NCBI RefSeq assembly: GCF_900113805.1
Contig: NZ_FOQT01000002.1
Location: forward strand, 558,001 to 622,000
Origin: Halpernia frigidisoli
Lineage (GTDB): Bacteria; Bacteroidota; Bacteroidia; Flavobacteriales; Weeksellaceae
Length of the DNA: 64,000 nucleotides
Direction of reading: 5' to 3'
The notes beneath the pieces were generated by a model that saw nothing but the letters and a program-made list of their open reading frames with translations, had not been told where the DNA came from and did not search any database. A program made the position numbers and the translations under genes. How positions within the stretch are numbered: position 1 is the stretch's first letter; each line of letters begins with the position of its first letter. This document shows positions 10,935-57,975 of the stretch, in pieces.

Positions 10935-10999
10935 GTAGCCCGACTTGAGTGTATCCCGATGTAAAATCGGGAGGGAACGGAAGGCGGAAATCGCTGCCC
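10935..10999 (+). repeat. Structured intergenic repeat, copy 1
   Basis: Shortest member of a four-copy family. Outer 4-bp stem: GTAG (10935-10938) with CTGC (10994-10997), including one G-T wobble. Second stem: CCGACTT with AAGGCGG, with an A-G mismatch in the middle. Then come the loop sequences GAGTGTA and GGGAACGG, and an apical hairpin TCCCGAT/ATCGGGA with a 5-nt loop. It sits between gnd and zwf, inside the operon, and its polarity (taken from the purine-rich side) is opposite to the operon. Confidence 0.8.
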
Positions 11000-21850: not shown

Positions 21851-21910
21851 TTTTTTTTAGAAGCAAGAGGAGTTATTTATATTTCGAAGATTGTTCCCGC
21901 TTTCCATTAC

Positions 21911-21947
21911 AATCTTTTTATAATTTTAAAAAATTATAAAAAGGATT
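21911..21947. terminator. Inverted repeat after the mvaA operon
   Basis: An AT-rich stem (aatc..tttttataatttt with its complement aaaattataaaaaggatt, one bulge) lies 60 nt after the DUF423 stop. It could end the mvaA transcript, although only short T runs follow. Confidence 0.4.
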
Positions 21948-22045
21948 TTCATTTCAATCGGGGCTATTTTTGAAGCGTTTTTCTTCTTTCAATTTTCCTT
22001 AAAAATCTGAAAATCAAGTTTTTTAGTATATTTAATTAAAATATT

Positions 22046-26490: not shown

Positions 26491-26602
26491 TAAATTCTTA
26501 GCGCACGGATTTTACAGATTTTCACAGATTGATTTAAATTTTGTGGAAAAAGTTATTAAACTAAATTCAAACTTCAAAAGATATTGAAAGAAGCGAAAAT
26601 CT

Positions 26603-26680
26603 GCAGCCCGACTTGAGTGGAAATCCTTTTTTTTGCATTTGAAAAAAAAGATTGGGAACGGAAGGCGGAAATGTCTGCCC
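26603..26680 (+). repeat. Structured intergenic repeat, copy 2
   Basis: Outer stem GCAG (26603-26606) with CTGC (26675-26678), second stem CCGACTT with AAGGCGG and a central A-G mismatch, then the conserved GAGTGGA and GGGAACGG, and an apical hairpin AATC-C-T8 paired with A8-GATT. It lies in the plus-strand gap between the CLC gene and sucC. Confidence 0.82.
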
Positions 26681-28080: not shown

Positions 28081-28166
28081 ATTTTATCAAAAATATTTCC
28101 CCGACCCTAAAGGGAGTATTTTTGATAAAATTTGTGAGAAATTTTCCTCCCTTTAGGGTCGGGGAA
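28081..28166. repeat. Two interleaved perfect inverted repeats
   Basis: Inverted repeat A is 15 bp (28081-28095 with 28117-28131). Inverted repeat B is 19 bp (28097-28115 with 28148-28166; core ccgaccctaaaggga). The left arm of B lies in the loop of A, so the order is A, B, A', B', a pseudoknot-like layout. No T run follows directly. Confidence 0.85.
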
Positions 28167-28230
28167 AGAAAATTTATTTATTGTGAAACTTAAAAGAACA
28201 AATTAAAATTAGCCCTTAATAACAAAAAAT

Positions 28231-54853: not shown

Positions 54854-56152
<1,299 letters not shown>

Positions 56153-56283: not shown

Positions 56284-56392
56284 CTGACTTATCTTGCCCG
56301 CTAATGCGAGTTGAATGTAGCACCTTATTTATTTCTAAACAGGTTGCTAAAGTTTCATCGGGTCAATTCCCTCCACTTTTCTGAATAAGTTG
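56284..56392 (-). ncRNA. SAM-I (S-box) riboswitch
   Basis: On the minus strand the leader shows the S-box core in order: P1 strand ACTTATTCAG, AAAGTGGAGGGAATTGACCC, GATGAAAC, GCAACC, an apical arm, AGGTGCTAC, a P4 stem CTCGCATTAGCGGGC-like, and the closing AAGATAAGT. These are the conserved kink-turn, pseudoknot and ligand-site segments of SAM-I. It controls metY-metX-hom through the terminator downstream. Confidence 0.95.
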
Positions 56393-56452: not shown

Positions 56453-56556
56453 TTTTAAAAAATAATTCTCACAGATTTTGTAGATAACGCAGATTTTCAA
56501 AATATAATTTTCTAAATTTTCCAAATTATATTGGCACTTGATTTTGCTCAAAAGTT

Positions 56557-56638
56557 GCGCCCCGACCTGAGTGGAGCTCTTTTTTGTGGAGCGCAGCGGA
56601 ACAAAAAAAGCGGGAACGGAGGGCGGAAAAAGGCGCCC
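56557..56638 (+). repeat. Structured intergenic repeat, copy 3
   Basis: Outer stem GCGC (56557-56560) with GCGC (56633-56636). Second stem CCGACCT with AGGGCGG: compared with copies 1 and 2 one T-A pair became C-G. GAGTGGA and GGGAACGG are unchanged. The apical hairpin is a T-run/A-run stem with a GC-rich tip. It lies between the met operon promoter and the amidinotransferase-fold gene. Confidence 0.82.
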
Positions 56639-56647
56639 AAAAAAAAA

Positions 56648-57562
56648 CTATTCTCTCACCAAAGGCAATGTAGAACAGCGTAAAAGCCCGCCCATCTTAG
56701 AAATTTCGCGGTAAGGAATTTCTTCTACGGTCATTCCCCACTCATTTCTTAGGTGGTCATTTAATCTTTTAAAACTTTTATCTGAGACAATTACTTCGTT
56801 TGAAATGGAGAAAATATTAGGAAACATCTCAAACATTTCTTCGTCTGTAACATGAAAACAGTTTTCTTCCCCAAAAATATCAATGATCAACTGGTAGTCA
56901 CTCTCATCAACAAAACCATTCTTATAAATGATGCATTTATCTTTACCAACAGGGTTAAAAGTGCAGTCTAAATGTAAAATGCCAACGAAGGGATCCTGGT
57001 CATTTTTTTTCAGTTCAAAATCTAAAATTCTTTTTTTTGGAAAATATTCTTTTAAAATTTCAATAGCATATTGATTGGTTCTGGCTGTTTTAAAATTACG
57101 GTAATCTTCGCTGTAACACGTTCCGATGAATATAAAATCATTCCAGACTATAACGTCGCCGCCTTCTATATGCGCAGTTTCCGGAAGATTGATGATATCG
57201 CGCCATTTTACTTTTTCAAAAATTTTTCTGTAGGCTTCCTGTTCGTCCGCACGGTCGTGAATGACGTTTGAAATGATCATTTTGTCCTCTATCACGAAAG
57301 CTACATCTCTGGCAAAAACCTGATTATAATCGTGAATTACATTTGGACGAAAAACTTCTACATCATATTTTTTTAAAATATTCTCAAAAGCGGTCATTTC
57401 CGAAGTAATGTCAGTTTCGCTTGGGTAATTGCCGTTTTCAAGGGTGTTATATGATTTTGCATCGTAACTTTGGGCTAAAGTTGGGGTTCCACCCATTGAA
57501 GTTGGTTGTCCCAAAACCACAGACCTTAATTTCCCGGTTTCGTTTTTAATGTTGAGTTTCAT
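56648..57562 (-). CDS. Amidinotransferase-fold hydrolase (arginine deiminase/DDAH-like)
   Basis: This 304-residue protein has the guanidino-modifying fold: FRPNVIHDYNQVFARDVAFV near residues 86-105 (substrate Asp), HIEGGDVIVWND near 141-152, a catalytic-type HLDCTFNPVG near 202-211 and the C-terminal nucleophile region MGGLLRCSTLPLVRE. It resembles dimethylarginine dimethylaminohydrolase and arginine deiminase families more than CtlX. The substrate (arginine, methylarginine, other guanidine) is not settled. It stands alone between two copies of the structured repeat. Confidence 0.8.
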   Translation of the reverse strand: MKLNIKNETGKLRSVVLGQPTSMGGTPTLAQSYDAKSYNTLENGNYPSETDITSEMTAFENILKKYDVEVFRPNVIHDYNQVFARDVAFVIEDKMIISNVIHDRADEQEAYRKIFEKVKWRDIINLPETAHIEGGDVIVWNDFIFIGTCYSEDYRNFKTARTNQYAIEILKEYFPKKRILDFELKKNDQDPFVGILHLDCTFNPVGKDKCIIYKNGFVDESDYQLIIDIFGEENCFHVTDEEMFEMFPNIFSISNEVIVSDKSFKRLNDHLRNEWGMTVEEIPYREISKMGGLLRCSTLPLVRE

Positions 57563-57860
57563 GTTTAGATTCTTATAATTTTAAAGGTCAAATTTTATCG
57601 ATAAAGTTTTTTAATATGATTTTACAAAAAATCTCAAAGCGATTTTATTAGTTGACAATTACACAAATATAAGTAAAAGAAGCAAGAAGAAAAAAACAAG
57701 AATGATAATCCAAAATTTTACTTAGACTAAAATTTTATAATTTTTTTAAAAATCTTTTTCTCGCTAATTAGCTCAAAATTGCACAATGGTTTGAAAGAAA
57801 AATATTATAAAAATGAAATATAGTTGAATTTATAAAATGATCTACTTTTACGCAAAATCT

Positions 57861-57975
57861 GCGCCCCGGCTTGAGTGGAACTCTTTTTGGCATTGCGGTA
57901 TTTACCTATACTTTTAATAAAAAATCTTCGACAGCAATGGCAAAAAAGTCGGAACGGAAGACGGAAATGTGCGCC
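57861..57975 (+). repeat. Structured intergenic repeat, copy 4 (longest)
   Basis: Outer stem GCGC (57861-57864) with GCGC (57971-57974). Second stem CCGGCTT with AAGACGG: the A-G mismatch of other copies is here G-A. GAGTGGA is kept and GGGAACGG is CGGAACGG. The apical hairpin is much longer (ACTCTTTTTGGCATTGC with GCAATGGCAAAAAAGT), with about 33 unpaired nt inside. Confidence 0.8.

Follow-up and report, generated by a model that had tools for sequence, protein, structure and literature searches.

The window analysed here is a 64,000-nucleotide stretch of a Halpernia frigidisoli contig. It contains four intergenic elements that share one architecture, together with a canonical copy of Flavo-1, a repeated flavobacterial element described as an RNA by Weinberg et al. 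in 2010 (Rfam RF01705; PMC2864571), classed by Rfam as 'Gene; sRNA' and counted as one of the abundant small RNA families of bacteria (PMC9029176). The four elements are a divergent subtype of Flavo-1, which we name type B; the canonical form is referred to as type A. Their positions are given below with scores from the Rfam model and from R1, a covariance model built from 28 type B copies found by exact pattern:

10935-10998, forward strand: type B copy 1; R1 64.1 bits (training sequence); foot GTAG/CTGC
21889-21969, reverse strand: canonical (type A) Flavo-1; Rfam 78.6 bits, E 1.1e-15; type B model 32.4 bits
26603-26679, forward strand: type B copy 2; R1 88.8 bits; Rfam Flavo-1 47.2 bits; foot GCAG/CTGC
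56557-56637, forward strand: type B copy 3; R1 87.3 bits; Rfam 37.0 bits, E 3e-4; foot GCGC/GCGC
57861-57975, forward strand: type B copy 4; R1 68.5 bits (training sequence); Rfam 29.1 bits, E 0.045; foot GCGC/GCGC

The R1 scores of the window copies (64-89 bits) are not independent of the model: copies 1 and 4 are among the 28 training sequences, and copies 2 and 3 are represented in the training set through identical loci. A check of the sequence found all four elements where the original prediction had placed them, and the covariance model matches each on the forward strand. The single orientation claimed for them holds within type B and fails for the family, the canonical copy at 21889-21969 lying on the opposite strand. 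The guess that they might be Flavo-1 was right: A Rfam 15 scan places RF01705 over its cut-off at 26601-26675 (copy 2) and at 21889-21969 (reverse strand), and at a loose threshold copies 3 and 4 are matched at 56554-56634 and 57858-57972 with 37.0 and 29.1 bits, both below the curated cut-off of 42 bits. Copy 1 is absent from the Rfam scans at default and loose threshold alike, and one of the four type B window copies (47.2 bits) reaches the cut-off. The original prediction had taken a strong Rfam match to speak against novelty, and on that reckoning the family is not new and the subtype is; Flavo-1 was already known, and type B and its behaviour are the new details.

The copies differ mainly in their tips and settings. 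The apical module of copy 1 is short (TCCCGAT..ATCGGGA) and is also present in Epilithonimonas and Kaistella copies (L178, L241, L199), that of copy 2, TTTTTTTTGCATTTGAAAAAAAA, is genome-specific, and copy 4 has a long apical hairpin. Copy 3 has the SAM-riboswitch leader of a metY-like gene on one side and an arginine-deiminase-like gene on the other. The riboswitch itself (56286-56391, reverse strand, 78.3 bits) adjoins copy 3 and lies upstream of an O-acetylhomoserine sulfhydrylase-like gene (54854-56149). Elsewhere in the window, positions 28096-28167 hold a long near-perfect inverted repeat, TTTCCCCGACCCTAAAGGGAG..CTCCCTTTAGGGTCGGGGAAA, whose label in the scan is a chance microRNA match.

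Type B forms a large population. The exact pattern of its loops has 31 matches in H. frigidisoli (G000), 10 in Halpernia humi (G001) and 7 in a related complete genome, G008, and a reversed control pattern has none in the same genomes. R1 returned 96 matches in H. frigidisoli, 46 in H. humi and 106 in G008, 88 of the last classed as type B. The scores show a gap, with type B mostly above 55 bits and type A at about 40 bits or less. H. frigidisoli has about 90 type B copies; where only a limited number of candidates was scored, copy numbers are minimum values, and the genome material used comprised stretches around elements and sampled stretches. Many type B copies of G008 score 42-46 with Rfam Flavo-1, or just under. 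The genera among the matches listed by a GTDB pattern scan are Chryseobacterium, Epilithonimonas, Kaistella, Halpernia, Frigoriflavimonas and Amniculibacterium, with two Flavobacterium species, and when 295 genomes of the class were sampled, strong matches to type B appeared in the same family alone. Type B shares with Flavo-1 a Bacteroidetes host and many copies per genome, many of them extragenic. Carriage by phages was rejected on a search of IMG/VR with one strict pattern, which returned no exact match.

Several features recur around the elements. In many genomes a semi-conserved GCGAA or GAATCT/GAATTG stands a few bases upstream of the foot, and CAAAWAA directly follows the type B tail. 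The upstream GCGAA motif resembles d(GCGAAGC), a very stable DNA mini-hairpin. There are also type B derivatives whose 3' arm contains a second, hairpin-like insertion (L390:348-528, L392:521-649 and L393:628-758), and in L390 one element apparently lies within another.

The best-fitting order of helices begins with a foot, GCNN/NNGC, followed by an A-rich linker of 4-7 nt on the 3' side only and then by the inner stem CCGACTT/AAGGCGG, which contains a purine-purine mismatch. Above the inner stem, two purine loops enclose a 2-bp stem; a 3-bp stem, a single bulged C and a free apical stem complete the fold. The stem pairs quoted in the original prediction are correct, with feet GTAG/CTGC (which includes one T.G wobble), GCAG/CTGC and, twice, GCGC/GCGC, and inner stems CCGACTT/AAGGCGG, CCGACCT/AGGGCGG and CCGGCTT/AAGACGG, the last with A.G flipped to G.A in copy 4. 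Its description of the loops as nearly fixed is fair, the exception being copy 1, with GAGTGTA for GAGTGGA. The claim that the apical hairpin varies freely stands only in part: The module TTTTTTTGCATTTGAAAAAAA occurs 30 times in the H. frigidisoli genome when 3 mismatches are allowed, once inside a type A copy.

Covariation in the stems is far above chance. Across 88 distinct aligned copies, pairing is kept in 98.7% of 1755 cells with 266 two-sided changes, against 66.6 +/- 14.7 in shuffles and 12-42 when the structures were slid by 1-3 columns. A further 63 copies, taken separately from G008, gave 99.4% pairing and 188 two-sided changes, against 0-7 in slid structures. These two sets are a wider sampling than the R1 training set, which came from an exact-pattern search and whose invariant alignment positions are partly so by construction. 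All four forms of the 2-bp stem were met (GU/AC, AC/GU, AU/AU and GC/GC), and the feet are exact complements in 236 of 244 copies, taking six forms (AG/CT, GC/GC, AC/GT, AA/TT, GT/AC and GG/CC). GCAG was counted 184 times and GCGC 44 times, beside minor forms, and GTAG once, in window copy 1. The inner-stem mismatch is A.G in 65 of the copies tallied, G.A in 18 and T.G in 1, with no case of A.A or G.G, and none of 86 copies lacks the bulged C. Selection on structure, as originally proposed, is likely, although the compensatory changes are not independent events because the copies are homogenised within a genome.

Standard pairs dominate the stems almost to the exclusion of wobbles. In 147 type B copies we counted 7 G.T wobbles beside 2912 standard pairs (7/2919), made up of 2 with 1664 standard pairs in one set and 5 with 1248 in the other. 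As a control with true RNA, 23 SAM riboswitches of the same clade have 26 wobbles beside 517 standard pairs (26/543); the difference has a Fisher p of 1e-15, a significance that is overstated, as the test treats related copies as independent. Folding with DNA parameters recovers at least 80% of the conserved pairs in 121 of the 147 copies on the forward strand, and RNA parameters do so in 97; the reverse strand reaches 60 with DNA and 42 with RNA. In copies 2 and 3, the conserved fold is the optimum for forward DNA but not for forward RNA, and some reverse-strand RNA folds agree with the conserved structure. The proposal that the forward strand is the folded one draws modest support from these numbers, forward DNA having the highest recovery. 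In Flavobacterium psychrophilum, Flavo-1 hits show no consistent orientation, sense or antisense, to transcripts, and many fall where nothing is transcribed (PMC9723704).

Comparison of the two Halpernia genomes shows that sites are inherited and tips replaced. For 12 of the 20 flanked copies of H. humi, H. frigidisoli has an equally oriented copy at the same place, and the flanking sequences are mostly 71-88% identical; several type B sites are also common to different genera. The form of the foot agrees in 12 of the 12 orthologous pairs, where 0.60 per pair is expected. Apical similarity, by comparison, is 0.48 in orthologous pairs and 0.53 in random cross-genome pairs, and 0.66 and 0.61 within the two Halpernia genomes. 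The part replaced at conserved sites is the hairpin beyond the invariant bulged C, and the replacement is genome-specific: the two commonest forms of the H. humi tip CCGCCGCGGCGG account for 8 of 20 copies, and one apical module is common to a type A copy and many type B copies. Type B copies can therefore be edited in place, since at orthologous sites the feet are concordant and the tips genome-specific, and exchange between copies is the simplest reading of the tip replacement. Within the window, the sites of copies 1 and 4 are empty in H. humi. The copy 3 site, whose orthologous sites are L384:1762-1841 and L005:1501-1586, holds type B in H. frigidisoli and H. humi and type A, in the same orientation, in another genus, G010; this points either to a change of type in situ or to two separate fillings of the site.

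The elements are placed with a preference relative to genes. Among 86 Halpernia copies, 42 in co-directional gaps are antisense to the genes and 24 sense, and among 64 copies in G008 the corresponding numbers are 33 and 6. The 3' end of the element is often 6-30 nt from the stop codon of the antisense gene. Of 150 copies, 30 lie in divergent gaps, which contain no gene end, and 15 in convergent ones. A simple script, for which the space before the element is short, found canonical terminators at few of the 121 gene ends that face an element (5 before the element and 10 after it), against 80 of 317 co-directional and 79 of 154 convergent control gene ends from the same taxa. The same scan found no hairpin-plus-U-tract terminator inside the element. 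The 8 nt behind the hairpin contain on average 1.4-2.5 T in the forward direction and 2.5-3.4 in the reverse, and five or more T were counted in 0-2% of copies forward and in 2-13% reverse; an intrinsic terminator was rejected on this absence of a T tract.

Replication was considered as a second source of strand bias. By GC-skew replichores, 45 of the 64 copies in G008 fall in one strand class (p = 0.0016), a bias by which the lagging-strand template carries the reverse complement instead of the favoured strand. Replication strand was rejected as the main rule: gene orientation is the stronger factor, and in gene-neutral gaps of G008 the bias is only 16 of 25.

A REP-like origin with RAYT-type enzymes had been offered as an option, and the link to these enzymes did not hold up: no type B copy lies in the roughly 1.5-kb flanks of 20 Y1 genes, and Rfam finds no Flavo-1 at 14 of these loci. 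The single RAYT-like gene of H. frigidisoli carries a frameshift, and the REP on its flanks is another one, GCTGCCGCACGATTGCATCGTGTGGTCA. The gene lies at L049:1200-2060 (G000:C7 near 19046), with several GCTGCCGCACGATTGCATCGTGTGGTCA copies and an inverted copy downstream. Y1 genes are patchy and do not track type B copy number: G002, G014 and G025 have copies and no Y1 gene, and G008 has many copies and one IS200-like gene. A constant GTAG (GT[AG]G) or CGTC tag at the hairpin foot was not found in 244 copies. In about a quarter of copies, further units follow downstream; they end in the same tail, and the tail agrees in form with the foot (three GCGC cases: L094, L116 and L117). This match resembles guide/target pairing but gives no evidence for an enzyme. 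At about 22 nt behind type B stand tandem mini-hairpin units, ACATTCGACnnAGTCAAATG..CTGCC (L094-L098, L104, L110, L116, L117, L145 and others). Separately, L038:1281-1390 holds two inverted weak matches to Acido-Lenti-1 (Rfam) beside a Y1 (IS200-like) transposase gene, and these may be transposon ends rather than an sRNA.

We give about an even chance to type B Flavo-1 being a DNA-level hairpin repeat, REP-like in behaviour, rather than an RNA. Such dispersed intergenic hairpins would fold as DNA when one strand is exposed; copies would mostly be inherited in place, with occasional gain or loss; their likeness within a genome would be kept by exchange between copies, with the shared arms probably serving recombination or gene conversion; and the loops and bulge may be read by a protein. 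The elements may also bring a benefit for the 3' ends of genes or for chromosome structure. A DNA repeat accords with covarying stems that contain few wobbles and 236 of 244 exactly complementary feet, with conserved sites whose feet agree in 12 of 12 cases while tips are swapped in place, with empty sites, with the Rfam strand being mostly antisense to flanking genes, with the best recovery of the fold by forward-strand DNA, and with the F. psychrophilum copies, which show no preference for transcript sense and are often untranscribed (PMC9723704). Against this, the wobble test overstates its significance for related copies, gene conversion is read from patterns rather than seen, no recombinase was identified, forward RNA folds reasonably well too, the replication bias favours the reverse complement on the lagging-strand template, and a function in the transcript could equally account for long-term site conservation and for the closeness to stop codons. 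More tentatively, and with clearly less than even confidence, we extend the DNA reading to Flavo-1 as a whole, as a chromosomal hairpin element and not an RNA family: its sites would be fixed across genera, its pairing strictly Watson-Crick and its distal hairpin exchanged for the species' own version, the whole being read by a putative structure-specific DNA-binding or recombining protein.

The main rival, possible though rather unlikely, is a role for the reverse complement as a 3'-end hairpin in the mRNA of the adjoining gene, where it would limit read-through or protect the 3' end with no U tract. It would explain why copies are antisense to genes whose stop codons often lie 6-30 nt beyond the element's 3' end and why the facing gene ends are poor in canonical terminators (15 in 121 ends), and some reverse-strand RNA folds do match the conserved structure; but of 150 copies 30 occupy divergent gaps, where no gene ends, and fewer (15) occupy convergent ones; the element contains no hairpin-plus-U-tract terminator, reverse-strand folding is the weakest by the recovery measure, and the terminator evidence comes from a simple script with short space before the element. 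The catalogued reading ('Gene; sRNA'), a small or cis-acting RNA from the Rfam strand, has strong covariation in its favour and a forward RNA that takes the conserved form in 97 of 147 copies. We think it improbable: that strand is mostly antisense to neighbouring genes, no constant gene partner was seen, wobbles are nearly absent, and the F. psychrophilum transcript survey found no sense preference (PMC9723704). That the elements are REP/IS200-type and moved by a Y1 (HUH) transposase which pairs the GCNN foot with the tail seems very improbable, even with a guide-like foot that pairs with the tail past a short linker, downstream hairpins that repeat the tail in a form matching the foot, genome-specific expansions and empty sites; the flanks of the 20 Y1 genes, the frameshifted RAYT-like gene with another REP, the copies in G002, G014 and G025, where there is no Y1 gene, the many copies beside one IS200-like gene in G008 and the lack of a constant GTAG tag all speak against it. 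Finally, hairpin-templated mutation alone could make the arms complementary with no selection, and would explain both the missing wobbles and the fast turnover of the apical stem. Nearly all copies, however, keep the A.G/G.A mismatch, the bulged C and the purine loops, which templated repair should remove, and we consider this reading highly improbable.

If Flavo-1 is a DNA element, the annotation of its numerous loci as sRNA genes is misleading, and the elements would be a clear bacterial case of concerted evolution, with the core fixed in place and the tip exchanged between sites. The type B model also makes copies missed by Rfam annotatable and gives precise compensatory mutants.

Among known systems, type B resembles REP/BIME elements and their RAYT (TnpA-REP) enzymes' targets (PMC3733652, PMC6006769) in its many intergenic copies, often close behind stop codons, its paired or guide-like foot, its tandem units and its genome-specific expansion. 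It differs from them in being two to three times longer, with complex internal loops, in having no constant GTAG/CGTC tag and in the lack of a linked Y1 gene (20 Y1 loci). With intrinsic terminators it shares a hairpin just behind stop codons, but it has no U tract on either strand and is also found in divergent gaps. The closest relation is to Flavo-1 RF01705 itself, although three of the four type B window copies fall below its Rfam cut-off. The foot is GCNN/NNGC with a 4-7 nt A-rich linker in type B and TAGC..GCTTCTA in RF01705; the lower loop of type B is one base shorter and the upper one base longer; the loop sequences are GAGUGGA / GGGAACGGA in type B and GAAGCGGAAA / GUAGCGGAAA in RF01705, with the same GGA elements; the 2-bp stem, GC/GC in RF01705, becomes GU/AC, AC/GU or AU/AU; and the single bulged C of the model used here is a 2x1 loop in the Rfam structure. 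Both nevertheless have the same order of helices and loops (foot, mismatched inner stem, purine loops round a 2-bp stem, upper stem and free apical hairpin) and occur in the same clade, the type A and type B models each detect the other subtype, and one orthologous site is type A in one genus and type B in Halpernia.
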